From positions 1 through 34,092 of the forward strand of contig WAOL01000022.1 in assembly GCA_015521295.1 (NCBI GenBank): a DNA stretch of 34,092 nt, written 5' to 3'. Origin of the DNA: Desulfurococcales archaeon. GTDB lineage: Archaea > Thermoproteota > Thermoprotei_A > Sulfolobales > NBVN01. The notes under the pieces were generated by a model, which was not told the DNA's origin, made no database searches, and saw only the letters and a list, made by a program, of their open reading frames with translations. Of this stretch, positions 12,445-24,629 are shown piece after piece (position 1 is the first letter of the stretch; each line of letters starts with the position of its first letter). The translations under genes were made by a program, and so were the position numbers.

Positions 12445-12864
12445 ATGTCAATAGTTGTACGTGAATTTAACAGTATCGGTGAATTCATAAAGAGCGTAGA
12501 CGATGAGCTAAGTGAAATGCGCAGGAAGTTGGGAGAGCTTCTGAGAAGGCTAGAGGAACTCCGTGTGAAGGTGGAGCAGGAACGAAAGATTAAGTCCATA
12601 CTCAGCAAACTGGGGGCAGCAGCCTCAGCCAGCGCACAGTCAAATGTTGTTGAACTCAAAACCATTAAGTTAATAATGAACCCTACAGCAGAGCAGGAAG
12701 TATCGGCCCTAGAGCAGGTTGTTGAGATGCTCAACAATAAGATCACCCAACTTCAGGCAATCAAGAAAGACTTAGATGTTCTAGGAGGAATGGATATCGA
12801 GGTAAAACTTACTGCAATATACATAGATGGATTACCTAAGAACATCCTCATAAGAATCATGTAA
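12445..12864 (+). CDS. Coiled-coil hypothetical protein
   Basis: 139 aa with long heptad-rich helix (ELSEMRRKLGELLRRLEELRVKVEQERKI) and second helix; TATA-like aacttattaag at about 12401-12411. Confidence 0.65.
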   Translation: MSIVVREFNSIGEFIKSVDDELSEMRRKLGELLRRLEELRVKVEQERKIKSILSKLGAAASASAQSNVVELKTIKLIMNPTAEQEVSALEQVVEMLNNKITQLQAIKKDLDVLGGMDIEVKLTAIYIDGLPKNILIRIM

Positions 12865-13010: not shown

Positions 13011-13022
13011 TAGTGGACAGAA

Positions 13023-13030
13023 TATATAAA
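13023..13030 (+). promoter_or_regulatory. TATA box for the pilus-type ATPase gene
   Basis: TATATAAA about 47 bp upstream of the GTG start at 13070. Confidence 0.65.
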
Positions 13031-13069
13031 ACATGAATGATAAGGGTTCTATGAGGCCTTGAAGCCTGG

Positions 13070-14686
13070 GTGAACATCTTGAAAGGTATTTTCCGTGGAT
13101 TTCGCCTAAAACTAAAGAGAGGGAAAAAGCCTGAGGAGAGGATGGAGGAAGTTGTTGAGGAAAAAGAAGCCCCCAGGTTAACAATGCGAACACGTACGTT
13201 CCTTAGCGGTAGGGGGCACTTACTGGCCTCATACCCCCTCTACGAACCGTGGGCATATGCTTTCATAGTTGAGGATCCGAAGACAGGGAAGATAGTATAC
13301 AATGTTGAGGAAGTAAGTATGAATGAAACGGAGCTTAAGACGTACAAGGAAGTTATAGACTACATTACCTGGGAATTGGAGCCGCCTGAAGAAATAACTG
13401 ACGCCAGGGAGTACCTAATAAAGTACGCTCGCAAGGCAATTCGCCTCTTTCAAATTAAGTTAGGTCGCACACCTGGGCTTTCCTGGGCCAAGATAAGTTA
13501 CTATGTCGAGCGAGACCTATTAGGTTATGGTCCTTTGGACCCTATCTTCAGAGATCCGAACATAGAGGATATATCATGTAACGGCGTGGGAATACCTGTA
13601 TACGTATGGCACAGAAAGTTCGAGTCCCTCCCCACAAACATCGTCTTCCGCACCGAGAAAGAACTGGACGAATACATCCTTAAGCTAGCACACATGGCAG
13701 GGAAACACATATCTGTAGCATACCCGATACTTGACGCGATACTCCCGGGAGGACACAGAGTTGCTGCTACCTTCCAGAAAGAAGTGTCAACGAAGGGCTC
13801 CACCTTCACCATAAGGAAATTCAGGGCTGACCCCATAACCATTATTGACTTAATAGATTACCGAACAATATCCCCTGAGATAGCTGCTTACTTCTGGCTG
13901 GCCATGGACTACAAGATGACAACACTCATACTTGGAGTCACCGGTGCCGGGAAAACCAGCACGCTGAATGCCATGGCTAACCTCCTCAGACCCACATACA
14001 AGATAGTGACTATAGAGGACACGCCTGAACTGAGGTTACCGCAGGAGAACTGGGTACAGCTTGTTTCCAGGCCTTCATACCTAGCTACAGGAGGCATAGG
14101 TGAAATAACGCTATTCCACTTAGTTAAGGTCTCACTCAGGTATAGGCCCGACGTAATCATAGTGGGTGAGGTCAGAGGTGAGGAAGCATACGTCCTCTTT
14201 CAAGCAATCGCCACCGGCCATTCAGGTATGACCACACTACACGCGGAGTCAATAGATGCTGCGGTTAAGCGATTGACTTCACCGCCAATGAATATCCCGC
14301 CATCGTACATACCGCTCATAAACGTCGCCATGGTAATAAAGCGGGTCGTCAGAACAGATGAAACCGGTAGGCCCAGACCAGCCAGGAGAATAACGAACAT
14401 CTGGGAAATCGAGGACTACGAGAAATACAAGGAAATAGCCAGGTGGGACCCAATACGCGACACCTTCAGCTTAAAATTAAGCGACAGCATAGTCCTAAAG
14501 AAGATCAGCGAGCTGACGGGCAAACCCCTAGAGAACCTCATAGAGGAGATAGCGCGAAGGAAAGCCATACTGGAATGGCTAGCCGCAAACCGCATCAGAT
14601 CCTACCGGGAAGTAGCAACGTACGTACAGAAATACTACGTAAATCCGAGAGCGGTGCTCAAGGAAATAGGTGTTGGTGAAATCTAA
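13070..14686 (+). CDS. Type II/IV secretion system ATPase (GspE/VirB11 family, archaeal T4P/archaellum-like)
   Basis: 538 aa; GYGPLDPIFRDPNIEDISCNG, Walker A GVTGAGKTST, Asp box IVTIEDTPELRLP, Walker B DVIIVGEVRGEEAYVLFQAIATGHSGMTTLHAES. Confidence 0.96.
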   Translation: MNILKGIFRGFRLKLKRGKKPEERMEEVVEEKEAPRLTMRTRTFLSGRGHLLASYPLYEPWAYAFIVEDPKTGKIVYNVEEVSMNETELKTYKEVIDYITWELEPPEEITDAREYLIKYARKAIRLFQIKLGRTPGLSWAKISYYVERDLLGYGPLDPIFRDPNIEDISCNGVGIPVYVWHRKFESLPTNIVFRTEKELDEYILKLAHMAGKHISVAYPILDAILPGGHRVAATFQKEVSTKGSTFTIRKFRADPITIIDLIDYRTISPEIAAYFWLAMDYKMTTLILGVTGAGKTSTLNAMANLLRPTYKIVTIEDTPELRLPQENWVQLVSRPSYLATGGIGEITLFHLVKVSLRYRPDVIIVGEVRGEEAYVLFQAIATGHSGMTTLHAESIDAAVKRLTSPPMNIPPSYIPLINVAMVIKRVVRTDETGRPRPARRITNIWEIEDYEKYKEIARWDPIRDTFSLKLSDSIVLKKISELTGKPLENLIEEIARRKAILEWLAANRIRSYREVATYVQKYYVNPRAVLKEIGVGEI

Positions 14687-14705
14687 CAGCGGGTTCTCAA
14701 GAATC

Positions 14706-16859
14706 TTACCCTGAGTTAGTTAGCAGCCATATATAGAGTGCTGTAAACACCGCTAGCGTAGCGTCGAAATCCGGGTTCGTTCCGTGCGGATCCTTACCTG
14801 TCCAGTCAATCGGCGGTAGTGAATTAATTATTATATATCCATTACCTTCAGCCCATGCTGCACTAATTATTCTGTTTGTGCTGGCGTTTATGTAGAACAC
14901 GTACGTTGGATTAGCATTTGGAGGGGCTATGATGCTATAATTGCTCCACACGCTTTCCTGTAGGTTATATAAGTTGAAAGCATTCACCATGTCGTCCCAG
15001 TTAGCACCAGTACCTGCTGTAACGTTGCTCGAGGTATCTATTATAAGGTTTGAGGGATATACCGGTGGGGCACCAACTATATTGACCCAGATCCACCCAT
15101 CGTTCCTGACATAGTCCATCACCGTTGCAGGGTTTATTGGGGATTGCATTCCATGCAGGTTTATTACGATCGCGTTTTTGGGTGGGTTGTTGATTAACAG
15201 GCTATCAAGTAGGCTCTCATTATTTATGACTATGTAGTTGGATATGCCGACCGAGAGGAGCTTATCCTTGACCAGTGACGCTAGTTTCTGGAGGTCCTCA
15301 GTCACGTTCCCGCCACCTATTCCTTGGGCAGCGTAATTGTTTAGCGCCAGCAGATAGACCGTTGGGAGATTCTTGAAATATGGGTTATTAATACCCCATT
15401 CAACAAGTACGTACTCCAAACCTACTCTAAACTCCACCCCTCCCTCACCATTATCTGAAGGATCTATCACTTCCGTGTAAGGATCATACAGGAATACGGC
15501 CACCCTGTAAATATCTGACCTGTTTACCGGGAAGATAGCGTCGAAGCTAAACGTCCTGGGTTTAGCTGTAGAGAATATCAAGTCCTTGTAATGCGTGAAA
15601 ACCCACCTACCTGTAGCTTTATCTAGTTTGTAGATAGCTATCATAGCAATTCTTAACTTTCTGATGCCAGCTAAGTCAACAGACCCTCTAAAGAGCATTT
15701 TCCAATAGTAGTTAATCTTAGTTGACACTCTAATATAATCCGCGTTAGTTATGTCTTTGGAAATCATTACCTTCAGTGCGTAGGTCTCATACCAGTTATT
15801 ATTGTTGTTTATTGTGTCAAGGACTAATTCAGGGACACCATTATGATCCATATCCTCCTTCCTTATAGCACCTGTGGAGTTATCTTCATTAACCAATGTG
15901 CCAGAGTACGCAAGTCTGCAGCCTAGGTAACTGCTAGGCGTGTCGATTACTGGATTAAAGGATGAATCACATGTATATTTATTCACATAAGTTCCATTTA
16001 CGTAGTTATATGTTGTACTCCAGAAACCAGAGGAGTAGAATTGATACGTACCTAAAAAGCCCGTATAAACATCCCATGAACCGCCGAAACTCTTTTCGAT
16101 TGTCACCATATAGAATCCCGGGTGTTCAGGGTCGTCCCAAATGAATGACTTAGAGAAAGTGTCATCGTACAGAACGTAGTTACTTCCTCTAATTAACGTT
16201 ATGTTGGAATTCTTCACTATCTCATCATACCCTATTAACTTGAACCCTGATATTGGCATGAACATGCCCATCCAGCCTAAGCCGCCACCGTAAGTCGTCG
16301 GTGGGACTAAATTGTTTAACGGGGATGGCTGCCCAGGTAAAACATTACCTGTTGAGGTAACTATTTTCACGATATAATTTTTCGCTTCATTTACGTTTAG
16401 ATTAAATCTTATCAACAAGGAACAACCTGGTTGCAGGGTAGGGTAAGTTCCTGGTACTAGCCTAACTTTTGAGTCACCCGCATATATTACAGCCCAGCTC
16501 ACTATCGGGTTGTTTTCAAGGTACTTCATACTTATGAAATAAGCTAAGTTATTAGTTGTCTTAGAGACTAGCAGTAGGGACTCCAGAGTGACAGGAACGG
16601 TCCCCGTATTATTTATCCACACCCCAGGGACTAAGTTAGCTCTGAGGTTAGATGGAGTGGGTGGAATCCCTCCTATAGCTAATGACTCCTCCCTCTTAAT
16701 CTGAAGGAACTCCTCCCTATAGACGTTATTTATTTGGGCCTGATTTACTGAGGTCTGAATCCTAAGTAATAAAGGAATTACTGCGACAAATATTACCGAT
16801 AGTATAAGTATACCGGCAATTAACTCTGATTGGGCTCTCGACACTCTTAACTTCATCAT
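14706..16859 (-). CDS. Large surface protein with type IV pilin-like N-terminus
   Basis: 717 aa; N-term SRA|QSELIAGILILSVIFVAVIPLLL resembles an archaeal class III signal peptide; long Asn/Tyr/Thr-rich ectodomain. Confidence 0.8.
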   Translation of the reverse strand: MMKLRVSRAQSELIAGILILSVIFVAVIPLLLRIQTSVNQAQINNVYREEFLQIKREESLAIGGIPPTPSNLRANLVPGVWINNTGTVPVTLESLLLVSKTTNNLAYFISMKYLENNPIVSWAVIYAGDSKVRLVPGTYPTLQPGCSLLIRFNLNVNEAKNYIVKIVTSTGNVLPGQPSPLNNLVPPTTYGGGLGWMGMFMPISGFKLIGYDEIVKNSNITLIRGSNYVLYDDTFSKSFIWDDPEHPGFYMVTIEKSFGGSWDVYTGFLGTYQFYSSGFWSTTYNYVNGTYVNKYTCDSSFNPVIDTPSSYLGCRLAYSGTLVNEDNSTGAIRKEDMDHNGVPELVLDTINNNNNWYETYALKVMISKDITNADYIRVSTKINYYWKMLFRGSVDLAGIRKLRIAMIAIYKLDKATGRWVFTHYKDLIFSTAKPRTFSFDAIFPVNRSDIYRVAVFLYDPYTEVIDPSDNGEGGVEFRVGLEYVLVEWGINNPYFKNLPTVYLLALNNYAAQGIGGGNVTEDLQKLASLVKDKLLSVGISNYIVINNESLLDSLLINNPPKNAIVINLHGMQSPINPATVMDYVRNDGWIWVNIVGAPPVYPSNLIIDTSSNVTAGTGANWDDMVNAFNLYNLQESVWSNYSIIAPPNANPTYVFYINASTNRIISAAWAEGNGYIIINSLPPIDWTGKDPHGTNPDFDATLAVFTALYIWLLTNSG

Positions 16860-17533
16860 CCACCCCCCAGAGGTGTTGAGATCTTATTTAAGACATAATA
16901 TTTACCGCTTATTTCCGTTAACGTGATTAAGGTTAGGTAGTAATCATGCCAAGTATTAGGCAATATAACCTTAATCTCAACATACGCCGTCGGAACGGAA
17001 TCATTTACTGAGGTAGCAACTTTAAAGACGGGGACCGAAGTAACTTCCAGAGTGAGACCATTCATTAAGTTAATGTCCGTCCCCCTCACATTTATAATGC
17101 TTATTAAGTTAGGCGCCACCGAGAAATTACCGGTAGACTCGTTAGGCGTCAACACATAAACACTCTCCGAAGCCCAAAGCTCGCTTGTCTCATAAAATAG
17201 AATTCCGTTCAGATTCCCTAACGTAATTAAGGGAACAACATAGAAATAATCATTCCCAGTCCTTACTAACTTAACGAGCTTAAACAAAAATAGGTGCTCA
17301 CTATGCGTATCATTAACAGGCGTGAACCCGTGAAAAACCAACGCCAAATACTCATTACTTGCCTGTGAATAAACCGCGTCAGAAATATCCAATTGACTAC
17401 TAACTGTTGCCGACTGCGAAGTAAATAAAGCAACAACAGCCAGACCAACAGCTAACGACACACCAACCAATAACACCACTGAAATAATGTTACTCTGACC
17501 GCATCTCCACTTTATTCTTAACCTCACGCCCAT
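16856..17533 (-). CDS. Pilin-like membrane/surface protein
   Basis: 225 aa; RCG|QSNIISVVLLVGVSLAVGLAVVALF hydrophobic helix; 4-bp overlap with the 717-aa ORF. Confidence 0.8.
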   Translation of the reverse strand: MGVRLRIKWRCGQSNIISVVLLVGVSLAVGLAVVALFTSQSATVSSQLDISDAVYSQASNEYLALVFHGFTPVNDTHSEHLFLFKLVKLVRTGNDYFYVVPLITLGNLNGILFYETSELWASESVYVLTPNESTGNFSVAPNLISIINVRGTDINLMNGLTLEVTSVPVFKVATSVNDSVPTAYVEIKVILPNTWHDYYLTLITLTEISGKYYVLNKISTPLGGG

Positions 17534-17691
17534 TGCTTATACTGTCACCATTCTTCATTGTGTTCTTAAAAATTTAATACCCTTTCCCAAAGCCTTCCTA
17601 TGCGTCTCTTCAACAACTATTTAAAAGGAGTGAAAGGTTGGGTATGCCATACAACTGTAAGCTACGAAATATTTCAGGAACCAAAACATAA

Positions 17692-17740
17692 TTATCCTAG
17701 AACCTGACAAAACTGATCCCTTAAGATATTATTAGGATAA
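17692..17740. repeat. 8-bp perfect inverted repeat TTATCCTA...TAGGATAA, 33-nt spacer
   Basis: Arms 17692-17699 and 17733-17740, downstream of the pilin stop on the minus strand. Confidence 0.6.
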
Positions 17741-17765
17741 AGAAGAAAACAGTAAAAAGTTACCT
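17741..17765 (-). terminator. Possible T-rich terminator after pilin gene
   Basis: Minus strand reads ggtaactttttactgttttcttctt just after the pilin stop (17766). Confidence 0.4.
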
Positions 17766-18215
17766 TCATTTAGCCTGCACAACTATAGAGTAGACATTAC
17801 CTGCTGCTGTGTAAACCTTAACTTGATATGATGTACCACTTGTGTAACTTCCTGTTAATGGCACGTTAATATACATGTCCACCCCTGGTCCTATAGTGAA
17901 GCTACCTAATACCGTTGTCCCAGAGGCGCCTCCTACAGGCGATGTAGTGACTGTTTCAGAAGATATTGATTCTATACCTACAACTTCTATTTTCTGTATG
18001 GTCGAGGCTGCTGTGCCCGTATTCTTCACGTGAAGCACTAAAACTTTATTCCCTGCATCAATGTAGCTGTCCGGATAGAGCTGTAGTGACTCCGTTGACC
18101 CGAATGTTCCCCAGATACCCATTATCCATCCTATTACTCCTATGGCTATTACTAGGGTTACGGCTATTATGATGACCGTTGCAAGTATTGGTGATATAGC
18201 TTTCCGTGGATTCAT
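17766..18215 (-). CDS. Archaeal type IV pilin-like protein (candidate major pilin)
   Basis: MNPRKA|ISPILATVIIIAVTLVIAIGVIGWIMGIWG canonical archaeal pilin N-terminus; Ser/Thr/Gly-rich beta C-terminus. ORF extends to 18260 but MNPRKA at 18215 is the likely start. Confidence 0.9.
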   Translation of the reverse strand: MNPRKAISPILATVIIIAVTLVIAIGVIGWIMGIWGTFGSTESLQLYPDSYIDAGNKVLVLHVKNTGTAASTIQKIEVVGIESISSETVTTSPVGGASGTTVLGSFTIGPGVDMYINVPLTGSYTSGTSYQVKVYTAAGNVYSIVVQAK

Positions 18216-18332
18216 GAGCTTAGCACCAAGGTATTCTTCCGGAGGGTAATTAAAAAACACTGTGTTTAAGGAATTTAACCGTAACTTGTTGCCACTTTAT
18301 TAGCGTGGTTATCGAAAGAACTATTTGATCCG

Positions 18333-18755
18333 TTATTTTGACCGTATGTAAGTGGTTAGGGCATTGTAAACATTGCCTGACTTTGTGTATATTTTTATGG
18401 CGTACATTGTGTGTGGGGCGTAACTCTTTTTGAGGGTAATGTTTACTATTTTCTCCGTCATGGGATTTATCTTAATATTCACGTTTATTGTTTCCTTGTT
18501 TACTATGACAATTTTGTATATTTCTGCGGGTGAACTGCCTTGATTGAATAAGTGTAGCCTGAGTATCCATGCGTTGCCTTGTTTCTCTATGTAAGTGTCT
18601 GCGGAGTATATTTTCAGAATCTCCGGTTGCTTTACGCTTGACATGATGGAGTGGAACCACCCTATAAACGCTATTGATATGGACACCGCTACAGCTATTA
18701 ACACCATTATCGCGATTTCTTGGGAGATTCCCCTGCTCAACGTCACTTTCATCAT
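18333..18755 (-). CDS. Pilin-like protein
   Basis: 140 aa; LSRG|ISQEIAIMVLIAVAVSISIAFIGWFHS plus a C-terminus similar in pattern to the 17766-18215 protein (YAIKIYTKSGNVYNALTTYIRSK vs YQVKVYTAAGNVYSIVVQAK). Confidence 0.85.
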   Translation of the reverse strand: MMKVTLSRGISQEIAIMVLIAVAVSISIAFIGWFHSIMSSVKQPEILKIYSADTYIEKQGNAWILRLHLFNQGSSPAEIYKIVIVNKETINVNIKINPMTEKIVNITLKKSYAPHTMYAIKIYTKSGNVYNALTTYIRSK

Positions 18756-18963
18756 TCCTCTCCCAGAATCTCCAAATTGATTAAGCCATAGTCGCTAGCG
18801 TAGCTCTACCTAATTACTAGATTTAGTTTTAGTGTTATTAAGGGCTATCTAGAATGTCATACAACAAACCCGGTAAAGACATTCCCGTTACTCCTGTCTT
18901 AAGTCAATGCTAAGCTAATGATTGTGATGAGCCGTGTGCCGGGCCTTGCGACTGATAATCTTG

Positions 18964-20763
18964 TCATAATCCGATGAGTGCCAATGTTGCTAATATCGTT
19001 ACTGTTGAAAGTACCACCATTATTGCTGCGTGCTTGAATCCTGCTGCGATGCTTAGTTCGCTTACTTTGCCTGCTACTAGCCCCATTATTACTGCGTTGA
19101 TTAGTGTTCCTGCTGAGAGTACCGCTATTAGGGGTGCTAGGTCGTTGGGCGTTACGTTTTTGGAGCTCTGGAGTAATAGGTTTATTATGATTATTGGTGA
19201 TGCTGCTAGGAGCATTGTGCCGAAGTAGGGCATCACTACGTAGGCCCTTAGTTTCCTCCTCATCTCTACTTCCGCTTCTGCTAGGTCTTGTGTGAAGCTT
19301 GAGAGGGCGTCGATTATTTCCGGGGACCCGCCCCCTACGACTATTGAGTCTGCTAGGAAGCGGAATATCGTTATGACGAACCATTCCCGAACTCTTTTTA
19401 AAACCCTCCTCAGTGAGGTCTCTAGGCTCATACCCGATGCTAGAGCCACTGCCGCCTTACTTACTATTGGTGTGAGGTTCCCGTAATCCCTGCTTGCTAG
19501 GGAAATAATGCATTTCTCTGGGCTAAGTCCTGTTTTCCTTGCCTCACTGAGGTCCCTCAGGAAGTCCGCAGTAGCGTTTACTAGCCCCTTGCTTCCCCTC
19601 ATCTCACGCGTATGGCTTATCCATGCCGGGACGAAAACCACCAGTAGCGCCATTGCTAAGGAGATCGTCACGGACTTAGCTTCTAACGCGCCTATTCGCC
19701 CGGAGAAAACTCCGTAACCTCCCGTTACGATTAGCATTGTAATAAACGTGAGAAGTGCGAAGGGTAGTGCTGTCAGCGCTACGAGGTATGGTCCGTACCT
19801 TTTTACTGGGGTTTTCGGCTGTGATGCGTGCGCCATAAATAACGTCATGGCTCCTAGGGCGGGGAGTCCTACGAAGTTGTAGAGCGCGGGCATTAGTAGA
19901 TTAATTCTCGCGGTACCGGAAAGCCTGCTGGCCTGTATGGCTGATAGCGTGCCAGATACCGAGAAAAACACGAATATCGTTATCGACATTATTACTCCTA
20001 GGATTATGTAGACCTCTAGGAAGGATCCTAACCTCTCTATTATTGCTTTAAGCTCCGTTGTCCTAGTTGCAAAGAGTTCCCTTGTCCTAGTTTCTAGATA
20101 GTGAACCACGTCACCACCACTTCGTAGGGTGGTTACGTAGCCGAGCATCGTATCCCTGAACTTGGTGCTTGGGTGATACTTAGTAACAGCCTCTATCGCT
20201 GATAAGGGGTCCTTGCCGAAGAACTTCATCTCCATAACTATTCTTTTAGCTTCTTTCCTTATGGCTTTGAACACTTTTAGTTCGGAAACTCGCTCAAGAA
20301 TCTTGTCGACACTCACACCCCCCTTAACCATTGTTGAGACATATGCCATGAAGAATGGGAGCTCGTTATCTACCTCGGCCTTTCTGGAGGAAGCTAAGCT
20401 TGCCGGGTAGCTTATGCCTACAGCGAAAACCATTACAGGGACAACAGCTTCAATTACTAACATTGTAACTAGCGTGACCGTAGCTACGGGAATCACTAAG
20501 GCAAGCGACGCTAGTATTATACCTAGTATAAATGCTGCCAGTACTGTATACAAGATTATTCTCGAGGCAAATATCACTGGATGCTCGCTGATCCCTGCCT
20601 TGAGAATCGCCTTATCAAGTTCGAATCTCTTTGCTAAACTCTTTCCCCACTTCTCAAAGAGTGCTAAAGCTACAGCGTCCAGAACTTCCCTAGTCGTCGG
20701 CTTCCTAACCCTTAAACGCCTCTCCGAGATCCCTGCCGCACGCGACCCCATCCCGGTAGGCAC
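18964..20763 (-). CDS. T2SSF/TadC/ArlJ-like pilus assembly membrane protein
   Basis: 599 aa; two T2SSF-like halves, multiple TM helices; ELPFFMAYVSTMVKGGVSVDKILERVSE and DFLRDLSEARKTGLSPEKCI motifs. Confidence 0.93.
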   Translation of the reverse strand: MPTGMGSRAAGISERRLRVRKPTTREVLDAVALALFEKWGKSLAKRFELDKAILKAGISEHPVIFASRIILYTVLAAFILGIILASLALVIPVATVTLVTMLVIEAVVPVMVFAVGISYPASLASSRKAEVDNELPFFMAYVSTMVKGGVSVDKILERVSELKVFKAIRKEAKRIVMEMKFFGKDPLSAIEAVTKYHPSTKFRDTMLGYVTTLRSGGDVVHYLETRTRELFATRTTELKAIIERLGSFLEVYIILGVIMSITIFVFFSVSGTLSAIQASRLSGTARINLLMPALYNFVGLPALGAMTLFMAHASQPKTPVKRYGPYLVALTALPFALLTFITMLIVTGGYGVFSGRIGALEAKSVTISLAMALLVVFVPAWISHTREMRGSKGLVNATADFLRDLSEARKTGLSPEKCIISLASRDYGNLTPIVSKAAVALASGMSLETSLRRVLKRVREWFVITIFRFLADSIVVGGGSPEIIDALSSFTQDLAEAEVEMRRKLRAYVVMPYFGTMLLAASPIIIINLLLQSSKNVTPNDLAPLIAVLSAGTLINAVIMGLVAGKVSELSIAAGFKHAAIMVVLSTVTILATLALIGL

Positions 20764-20976
20764 CCCAAACTACTAACCTCTTAGTCGGGAACACCTAAAA
20801 CTTACTCTATTCTTTACATGATTTCTTTCATTCTTAAACCTTGATACTCTCATCAAATAACTTTTTAGAACATTCTCTTAGAACCTTGGATAATATAGCA
20901 GAAATGAAATAGTAAACTTAAAAGTAAGGCGCCTTTTATTTTTCTTGACGTAGGATATGCGGTAAGATTGGGGGTA

Positions 20977-23900
20977 ATGACCTTGAGAAGAAACATAAAA
21001 ATCAACTTATCTGCAGTAATTTTCCTCATGCTTGTTTCTGTAATTTCCTACTCTTTACTAGTCCTTAGTAGTGTAACTACCGCAGAAGGGGTAGTAACTA
21101 ATCCCTACGCATACAGTGTGAATATCTCCGTAAAGCCTGTTGCGGTGTACGCGTTGTCTCCGCAGAAAGTATTCTTGGTAGGCACCGCTAACGGATCTAC
21201 AGTTGTTGAAATACTTGATGTCAGCAACCCCCTTGCACAACCTAAGGTGTTACAATCCTACCCGCTCGTAGGTAACCCAACGGTCGTTGCGACGAACGGC
21301 TATCCCGTATCGCGAATAGCCGTTGGAACAAATGCTGGTGACTTAGTTCTCTTTAAGGTGGATGGTGGGAGAGTATATCTGCTTCTTCACGCTGTACTAG
21401 GGACTGATTTCTCAATAAACAAGTTACTAATACTTAAGGGCACAACGGACTACAAGCTCGCCGTATTGGCCGTCGAAGGTAAAGCACCTACGGGAGGTGT
21501 ATGCACGAAGTGTCATGTCTACGTATTTGACGAGCTCTCAGGTGGTGCGATGAGGATAGGGCTTAACGAAGGAAACGCGTCTCTCACGATAAATAACGTA
21601 TTACCACAAGACATCTCAGCCGCGCTCGTCGTAAGTAATGGTAATTACTATTATGATGCGCAAAAGTTCGTTGTTACATGGTTACCAGCTAAATTCTACA
21701 TGATCCTAGTAAACGCAACATACGTAACCAAAAACGGTACTATAGAGAAAGCAAGACACGCCTTAGTAGACATCATTACATACAATAAGGAGTTACGTGA
21801 AATGTACCACTACGGTATTAACCTAGGAAGGGATGGCACGGCAGAAATACCGGTTCCATGGGGATTTGACGCTAACTTAACACTTACGGACATAGACGGT
21901 AGAAAGTATACTAAGCATATTGAGGCTCCAAACGTAAGCGAGGTAACTAAGGTTTACGTGTCTCTTAAGCTTAATGCCCCGCCAGTAACTGCCGAAGCGT
22001 CAACATTATACAGCGTCCCTCCGTATGAACTAGCAACTCCTCACATAATCGATGTTGACAATATACCGAGTTCATTCAGTACCGTAACATCCCTCAACGA
22101 CACCCGAATAAATCCAGCATCGACAGGACTCTCCTTACTTAAAGGCGCCAGTTCATCTAACTTTGTCCTATACTATTATGACCCATCCACGGGAGAAGCC
22201 TACATTAAGGTTTACACCTCATCATTTAAACAGCTAAGTGAAGTCTCTGACTACGTTGGCGTTAGGCTATATTCTTTAGGTGCTTTCACGTACCCTGACG
22301 AGAAAATAATTATAACGGCATACAAGGAAGGCAAGGCAAAATATTACATAGCGTCTGGTAATTCATACAAGTTCCTCTACGAACTAACACTTGGAGGCAC
22401 GTTAAATAAAGTAGAAATAGTCCCGTCCATCGAAGGCTACTACTACATAGCCCACACAACCGCAGGACTTCAGGTGGTCCGCACATACCCGTACCAAGTA
22501 CCTATCCTCAGATACGGAACTTGGGTAAATTACGCAGAAGGATCCATAGACGGCGACATCGGCGGGAACTTAAATTACGGTGTCGTAGCATATAGCAATC
22601 ACCTAATTATTTTGCGAAACATTGCCTCTTTGATTAAAGGAGGGAAACCCACTAACCTAGAATCAATAAAGGTGCCGAAACTCTACGTAAAAGTGAATCT
22701 TCCTGAAGGCTTGCCTGTGAATGGAACTAAGATTTCCTTGATATATCCCGGAGGGATTATAGAGAAAGTCTTAAAGAAGAGTAATACCGCTGTATTTCCA
22801 AACATACTACCTAACGAAAATTACACGTTGGTTGTAAACTACACTGAACCATATGTGAATAAAGCTGTGTTGAACATCACACCGACAGGGTATAGGGACG
22901 TACACATCACGGTGAACCTTACCTATAAACTATATTCTCTAAAACTGAACATCAGGGACTCCGTAAGCGGTACTAAAATAATAGCCCCTTATGATGTCCA
23001 AATCGACAACAAAATTGTATTAAAGAACGTGAGGGAAAGCACGTTAACGCTTCCCGTGGTCTACGGGAACCACACCATAACCATTAGACCAGCAAGCGGC
23101 TATGAGAATGTTTATGAAGAATCAACCATACATACGTACGTAACAGGGAACACCACCGCTAACATTACGTTAGTCAGGAAGAAATATGCCCTCAACGTTG
23201 TGGTAATGGATAAGTATTCGAAGAGGTTGCTTGCGCCAGTGGTTGTTGAGGTGACTAAAGGCGTGTCAAAGATCATTGGTTTCGGCGGAACTAAGGCGTC
23301 GTTCATACTGCCATATGGTAATTACATTATTCATGTCTCGCCTTTGAAAGGGTATAGCAATATATACTTACCCACCACCGCGAGCGTTACACTAAATAAG
23401 CCGAGCACCGTAACATTAGTTCTTGAAAGAGTAAGATATACCCTCAATATATCCATTAAAGATGTAACAACCGGTGTCCTAGCGGGGCTATTCGATATTT
23501 ACGTTAACGGGAGTAAGGTCGCATCAGGTGTGAGGAGCCTAACTAACATCACCCTACCCTACGGCGTTTACGTTGTGTCAGTAACTCCGGAGCCTAAGTA
23601 CGCAAACGTTTATAGCACTCCTCGCCCACAGACTGTCAAAGTGTTCAATAATACTGAAGTTACCTTTAAGTTAAGCAGGAAGTTCTTCAAGATAAAAATC
23701 ATTGTTGTCGACGATGTGGGGGCACCCATAAAGAATGCTGAGGTGAGGTTCTTCAGCATAGACAAGGGCACTTATATCTCAACACTACTGACTGATGCTT
23801 CAGGAACTGTTCAAGGATCACTATTTTATGGGGGTTACAGGATTGATATCTTAGCTAAGGGATTTTACCCTGCCCAGCGGAACCTTATATTGAATAAAGA

Positions 23901-24060
23901 TACCGAGCTCACAGTAACGCTTCAGCCGCAATTACTCACTGTAATAATGCGGTACGCAATAGTAATTATAGTAGTGTGTATAGCTGCGGTGGCGATAATA
24001 GCTATCCTCAAGGTAAAGGCCAAGATCGCTGAAAGATTACCTAAAGAGGAACTCTTTTAA
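20977..24060 (+). CDS. Large secreted protein with C-terminal TM anchor: beta-propeller-like N-terminal region and tandem PEGA/Ig-like repeats
   Basis: ORF opens at TTG 20968, ATG at 20977; N-terminal signal-like helix, tandem domains starting YSLKLNIRDSVSGTKI, YALNVVVMDKYSKRLL, YTLNISIKDVTTGVLA, FKIKIIVVDDVGAPIK; C-term TM YAIVIIVVCIAAVAIIAIL + KVKAKIAERLPKEELF. Confidence 0.85.
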   Translation: MTLRRNIKINLSAVIFLMLVSVISYSLLVLSSVTTAEGVVTNPYAYSVNISVKPVAVYALSPQKVFLVGTANGSTVVEILDVSNPLAQPKVLQSYPLVGNPTVVATNGYPVSRIAVGTNAGDLVLFKVDGGRVYLLLHAVLGTDFSINKLLILKGTTDYKLAVLAVEGKAPTGGVCTKCHVYVFDELSGGAMRIGLNEGNASLTINNVLPQDISAALVVSNGNYYYDAQKFVVTWLPAKFYMILVNATYVTKNGTIEKARHALVDIITYNKELREMYHYGINLGRDGTAEIPVPWGFDANLTLTDIDGRKYTKHIEAPNVSEVTKVYVSLKLNAPPVTAEASTLYSVPPYELATPHIIDVDNIPSSFSTVTSLNDTRINPASTGLSLLKGASSSNFVLYYYDPSTGEAYIKVYTSSFKQLSEVSDYVGVRLYSLGAFTYPDEKIIITAYKEGKAKYYIASGNSYKFLYELTLGGTLNKVEIVPSIEGYYYIAHTTAGLQVVRTYPYQVPILRYGTWVNYAEGSIDGDIGGNLNYGVVAYSNHLIILRNIASLIKGGKPTNLESIKVPKLYVKVNLPEGLPVNGTKISLIYPGGIIEKVLKKSNTAVFPNILPNENYTLVVNYTEPYVNKAVLNITPTGYRDVHITVNLTYKLYSLKLNIRDSVSGTKIIAPYDVQIDNKIVLKNVRESTLTLPVVYGNHTITIRPASGYENVYEESTIHTYVTGNTTANITLVRKKYALNVVVMDKYSKRLLAPVVVEVTKGVSKIIGFGGTKASFILPYGNYIIHVSPLKGYSNIYLPTTASVTLNKPSTVTLVLERVRYTLNISIKDVTTGVLAGLFDIYVNGSKVASGVRSLTNITLPYGVYVVSVTPEPKYANVYSTPRPQTVKVFNNTEVTFKLSRKFFKIKIIVVDDVGAPIKNAEVRFFSIDKGTYISTLLTDASGTVQGSLFYGGYRIDILAKGFYPAQRNLILNKDTELTVTLQPQLLTVIMRYAIVIIVVCIAAVAIIAILKVKAKIAERLPKEELF

Positions 24061-24200
24061 ACTCGCTGGGTAATGATGCTAAGCAATGACTTGTTTCATT
24101 TTTTAGGAGAGTTAAAATCATAACTTGAAAATTAAATAACGTAAATAATTGCGGTTGAGATTTACTTTATCGGGGTAGCAACGCCAAGGTGTGTGCAGTG

Positions 24201-24629
24201 ATGAGCAGAAGTCCCGCTATATCATCTCTGGCCATTGAGATCTTAATACTGATCCTTACGGCAATACTTGTGCCCTTAGTCATTATGTGGGTTGTAGGGG
24301 TCTGGCAGACAACAGAAGAATCCTTTTCACTAACACCAACCTTACACGTCACCCAAAATTCCACAAGTAAGCCAATCCTAGTACTGCACATCACTAATAA
24401 GGGGAAGGACTCTGATGTTATAATACGTATAACTATAAAGGCGGGTAATGGTTACTATATCAATACCACAACGATTAGCATACCCGGAGGCTTCACAGGA
24501 TCCGTAACCATAGGAGGTTGGAAGATAAGCGGTAACCCACAAGCACTAAAACCTGGTGAAACCTACCGTGTGTATATATACACGAGAGAGCATGGCATGT
24601 TGCTCTATGATGTAGTAGCCTCGACATAA
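24201..24629 (+). CDS. Pilin-like protein
   Basis: MSRSPA|ISSLAIEILILILTAILVPLVIMWVVGVW N-terminus; beta-rich C-terminus; GTG upstream option 24189. Confidence 0.8.
   Translation: MSRSPAISSLAIEILILILTAILVPLVIMWVVGVWQTTEESFSLTPTLHVTQNSTSKPILVLHITNKGKDSDVIIRITIKAGNGYYINTTTISIPGGFTGSVTIGGWKISGNPQALKPGETYRVYIYTREHGMLLYDVVAST

Follow-up and report, generated by a model that had tools for sequence, protein, structure and literature searches.

Comparison of gene order points to a derived, split arrangement of a probable Aap-like pilus locus in a Desulfurococcales archaeon

Does a type IV pilus (T4P) locus whose assembly ATPase and membrane platform protein are encoded at opposite ends and on opposite strands specify a surface filament of its own, or a pilus of known kind with rearranged genes? 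Such a locus lies in the window, the whole stretch of 34,092 nucleotides analysed here, which forms contig C22 in a genome of 1.39 Mb; among named relatives, MAGs of Desulfurococcales and Sulfolobales are nearest. An earlier note on this DNA had described the ATPase gene on the plus strand, the platform gene on the minus strand and a 1030-aa surface protein, and all open reading frames were found where it had located them. The cluster comprises the following features.

12445..12864, plus strand: coiled-coil 139-aa protein (cc139), a neighbour kept at this cluster edge in relatives
13022..13031, plus strand: TATA-like ATATATAAAA, about 40 nt 5' of the ATPase start (consensus resemblance only)
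13070..14686, plus strand: pilus assembly ATPase (AapE/ArlI-type T2SSE; Pfam T2SSE), intein-free allele
14706..16859, minus strand: 717-aa pilin-fold protein with class III signal, pilin, jelly-roll and C-terminal Rossmann-like domains; proposed tip adhesin
16856..17533, minus strand: pilin-like protein of 225 aa and partner of the 717-aa one; suggested role as tip or minor pilin
17766..18215, minus strand: pilA, PilA-family pilin of 149 aa (TIGR02537 over cut-off); probable major subunit
18333..18755, minus strand: pilB, PilA-family pilin of 140 aa (UpsA model match below cut-off)
18964..20763, minus strand: membrane platform protein of the TadC/UpsF/ArlJ type with two T2SSF stretches
20764..20967, no strand: putative divergent promoter region between the platform operon and the surface-protein gene
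20968..24060, plus strand: 1030-aa surface protein with signal/TM helix, beta-propeller, beta-sandwich stalk and C-terminal TM anchor
24201..24629, plus strand: pilD, PilA-like pilin of 142 aa (UpsA model match below cut-off)

The pilin operon (14706-20763, minus strand) opens with the platform gene, and the ATPase gene (13070-14686, plus strand) faces the far end of this operon. Both run head-on into each other, as had been noted before; 19 nt separate the ATPase stop (14686) from the stop end of the 717-aa gene (14706). The TATA-like ATATATAAAA upstream of the ATPase gene is kept in all three congeners covering that site.

A search with profile models confirmed the identities assumed for the two core proteins: Pfam T2SSE matched the ATPase (E=1.4e-34) and T2SSF matched the platform twice (E=1.7e-22), in both cases over the cut-off. 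Membership in the archaellum, Ups and bindosome systems was ruled out by curated cut-offs together with an ATPase tree, in which the window ATPase falls outside the ArlI, UpsE and BasE clades. The archaellum (arl) possesses a homologous ATPase and platform; however, the window ATPase scored 375 bits against the FlaI model, below the cut-off of 550 bits, accessory arl genes are absent from the window, and a full archaellum operon is present separately in the same genome. Likeness to Ups (UpsA/B/E/F) was found for pilA, pilB and pilD, which match the UpsA model with E-values of 2e-13, 1e-5 and 5e-7, respectively, and for the platform, which matches UpsF; but all three pilins stay below the curated cut-off of 130 bits, and the platform reached 125 of the 400 bits set for UpsF. 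The BasE model gave 268 bits (curated cut-off 1000) and the BasF model 97 bits (curated cut-off 1300). The best Sulfolobaceae match of the ATPase (41-47% identity, 373-400 bits), which the tree does not group firmly with the clade of the window ATPase, belongs to a pair of ATPase and platform that is not of the Ups, archaellum or bindosome kind; by elimination, the nearest Sulfolobaceae relative of the window ATPase, at 45% identity, is probably AapE.

In Makarova et al. 2016 (PMC4858521), clade 4A holds Aap as well as Desulfurococcales loci, the latter with three to four extra genes proposed to encode minor pilins (PMC4858521). The system studied here probably fits these Aap-related Desulfurococcales members of clade 4A with extra minor pilins (PMC4858521). 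It shares with Aap of Sulfolobales, also of clade 4A (PMC4858521, PMC11178815, PMC11178785), a single ATPase, a platform, class III PilA-type pilins and PibD in trans. In contrast, the named Aap genes include neither the surface protein nor the proposed 717-aa tip protein, and ATPase and platform are convergent and about 4.3 kb apart, whereas aapE and aapF were reported to be always adjacent in the 2024 Aap cryo-EM paper (PMC11178815); this adjacency concerns gene order rather than mechanism. The closest solved pilin of pilA by sequence is 8fk7, the flagellar-like type IV pilus of Pyrobaculum calidifontis (E=4.9e-6). That structure, however, contains one small pilin and is without a large tip protein. 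A literature search found no paper naming this locus type.

The pilin-like proteins were examined for class III signal peptides by a strict rule ([KR][GA] ahead of a hydrophobic stretch) and by a relaxed one. Five pilin-like N-termini had been claimed; three of them, those of the 717-aa protein, pilA and pilB, follow the strict rule, but the 225-aa protein (RCG|QSN) and pilD (SPA|ISS) follow the relaxed rule only. Orthologues of the 225-aa protein carry REG|QAN and KKA|QAD, and a class III signal is therefore supported for this protein as well. Processing of pilD is less sure because the proline preceding the alanine is kept in all three congeners. Among the window genes outside the cluster, none fits either rule.

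Additionally, the genome was searched for partner genes. The window contains neither a prepilin peptidase nor archaellum genes, as the earlier note had stated, but this does not hold for the genome: a PibD-type prepilin peptidase is encoded on contig C1 (PF01478 and PF06847 over cut-off), and an archaellum operon on contig C12 comprises archaellin, arlX, two small arl genes, arlH (KaiC-type), arlI and arlJ, with ArlI reaching 624 bits against the cut-off of 550. The constituents of an archaeal T4P are all present, namely T2SSE and T2SSF proteins, class III pilins (three strict, two relaxed) and a genomic prepilin peptidase. T2SSF domains occur in two genes of the genome only, the window platform and the archaellum platform, and a Pfam search of the whole genome revealed no further non-archaellum platform gene. 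Since the window platform is the sole recognised one of its kind, the window ATPase and platform are likely to work as a pair despite their separation. A third, divergent ATPase is encoded together with a pilin on contig C19 (L043, C19:3000-12000) without a recognised platform; its 517-aa and 780-aa neighbours match no Pfam or NCBIfam model.

For the ATPase, the platform and the surface protein, best matches were listed in 194 genomes of the order and their positions compared. Adjacency of ATPase and platform, taken as the usual state beforehand, was indeed found in 80 of the 82 genomes having both on one contig, and the split order is exceptional. The ATPase is followed by a co-directional platform in 68 genomes, and in 12, all of family f4, both genes lie head to head and divergent; among the f4 loci (L039 and L049), L039 has several pilin-like genes behind the platform, one of them of 862 aa. 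Convergent genes 4.3-5.6 kb apart were found in two genomes only, the window genome and its congener G021. An assembly chimera or artefact was rejected, as G021 has the split order on one contig and contig fragments of the congeners G022 and G024 agree with it. The surface-protein gene adjoins the ATPase gene divergently in 26 of 31 cases.

Locus L025 of a sister genus carries the same gene set, colinear as far as SHMT, in the order cc139 (+), surface protein (-), ATPase (+), platform (+), pilB, pilA, glycosyltransferase, 225-aa, 717-aa and SHMT (+). In sister genera generally, the surface-protein gene is on the minus strand, followed by ATPase, platform and pilins on the plus strand. The order in the window genus is cc139 (+) and ATPase (+), then 717-aa, 225-aa, pilA, pilB and platform (all -), then surface protein, pilD and SHMT (all +). 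The outgroups L009, L025 and L027 all have the unsplit order; on this comparison, the split gene order is a derived rearrangement within one genus. Its cost, determined manually from signed gene order, amounts to at least three inversions, or to relocation of the ATPase past the surface-protein gene plus one inversion.

The 717-aa and 225-aa proteins have homologues in the distant families f3 and f11, where they recur as a neighbouring pair elsewhere in the genome, often divergent, and carry RRG|QA signals. AlphaFold models were obtained for the 717-aa protein (17 sequences, mean pLDDT 79, pTM 0.52) and the 1030-aa protein (mean pLDDT 80.5, pTM 0.59); both rest on 15-17 sequences, and beyond the pilin and jelly-roll parts the fold matches are mostly poor. 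The former model has a long helix at the N-terminus, domains rich in beta structure and an alpha/beta domain at the C-terminus. Its pilin part matches the archaeal T4P 8fk7 (TM 0.55 over target) and other parts match carbohydrate-binding modules (jelly rolls; TM about 0.5 over target), and we propose the protein as a tip adhesin. Its top Foldseek matches (phage fibres, BcsB, pore proteins) had TM values below 0.2 and were disregarded. The model of the 1030-aa protein is all-beta with a C-terminal helix and matches propeller proteins in general, suggesting an anchored collar or a surface-layer-associated protein.

Allelic variation was observed at the tip genes. The congeneric locus L012 (L012:13087-15938 as compared to window 14706-17533) has a divergent 225-aa gene, and its 717-aa gene diverges over the first two thirds; most of 15425-17780 in the window lacks a DNA match in L012, and 85% DNA identity was found over 14212-15424, including the last third of the 717-aa gene, whose C-terminal domain is near-constant. 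Import of the 225-aa gene and 717-aa front part into the window was rejected: window and L025 show the usual 22-23% difference there, and the divergent allele is therefore that of L012. In L012 (16055-17401) and L025 (10319-11647), a gene for a PMT-like membrane glycosyltransferase separates pilA from the 225-aa gene; it is absent from the corresponding window interval 17534-17765. Mosaic alleles and presence or absence of the glycosyltransferase would fit surface-exposed parts under diversifying exchange. An intein of about 482 aa with splicing and LAGLIDADG domains follows residue 382 of the pilus ATPase in two congeners; the pilus ATPase loci concerned are L012:10001-13063, L011:1480-4539 and L025:3835-7488, and L025-L027 have a second insertion, located at the Walker A site. 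The window pilus ATPase has no intein, and the archaellum ATPase of the same genome (C12; L042:3820-6960) contains a 38% identical one at the equivalent site.

We consider it probable (about 0.75) that the locus encodes one Aap-like adhesion pilus with a PilA-family shaft, a two-protein tip and a membrane-anchored propeller/stalk protein at the base. The direct basis is given by gene identities, order, conservation, the peptidase and the separate archaellum, from which we infer assembly, tip placement, adhesion, the role as a collar and the succession of rearrangement steps. PibD would cut the pilin signal peptides, and the ATPase (13070), beneath the platform protein (18964), would assemble a filament from PilA-family subunits. 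Its cap may consist of the 225-aa and 717-aa pilin-like proteins, the latter displaying sugar-binding-like and Rossmann-like domains. The 1030-aa protein would stay anchored in the membrane, probably as a collar at the site of pilus exit from the envelope. The ATPase gene presumably relocated past the surface-protein gene and the remaining cluster was inverted in place, so that each half would keep its own upstream region.

The earlier note had suggested a distinct filament, and part of this holds: the system is not an archaellum, does not fit Ups or bindosome at the cut-offs and has an exceptional gene order. One could also argue for a surface filament of distinct function, marked by ATPase and platform being controlled separately: the split is retained in each of the four congeners open to checking, either half has a conserved upstream region of its own, and the ATPase clade is separate. 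However, the same proteins are encoded in sister genera in the usual order of ATPase, platform and pilins; therefore, the composition marks no different machine, the unusual order is no sign of a distinct filament, and we regard this explanation as unlikely. Absence of the glycosyltransferase gene from the window might point to decay of the locus, with the genes uncoupled by the rearrangement and the pilus on its way to loss, but all reading frames are intact throughout the cluster, the ATPase retains its P-loop and conserved core, and orthologues of ATPase, platform and surface protein are about 87-98% identical (protein) within the genus, which renders decay very improbable. Slightly less credible still is a secretion or DNA-transfer device built from T4P parts: VirB11 and TrbB relatives belong to the same ATPase superfamily, but the window ATPase scores far higher against archaellum-type ATPases than against either, and PilA-family pilins with class III signals are present along with a T2SSF platform.

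The locus is a well-conserved pilus locus of known kind, with an order confined to one genus in this survey. The order would be surprising to a specialist, yet easily explained by rearrangement, and is an exception to the reported rule of neighbouring aapE and aapF; sister genera, being unsplit, offer a comparison for what the uncoupling of motor and platform does. Tentatively, and with some doubt, a broad Desulfurococcales-type group may build a pilus with a dedicated two-protein tip (one protein being a pilin fused to lectin-like and Rossmann-like domains) and a membrane-anchored propeller collar, all of them uncharacterised parts, one genus of which splits the control of motor and platform. 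Tips and exit points of crenarchaeal adhesion pili are poorly known; the tip module and the surface protein are conserved, uncharacterised leads to them and more useful than the gene order.
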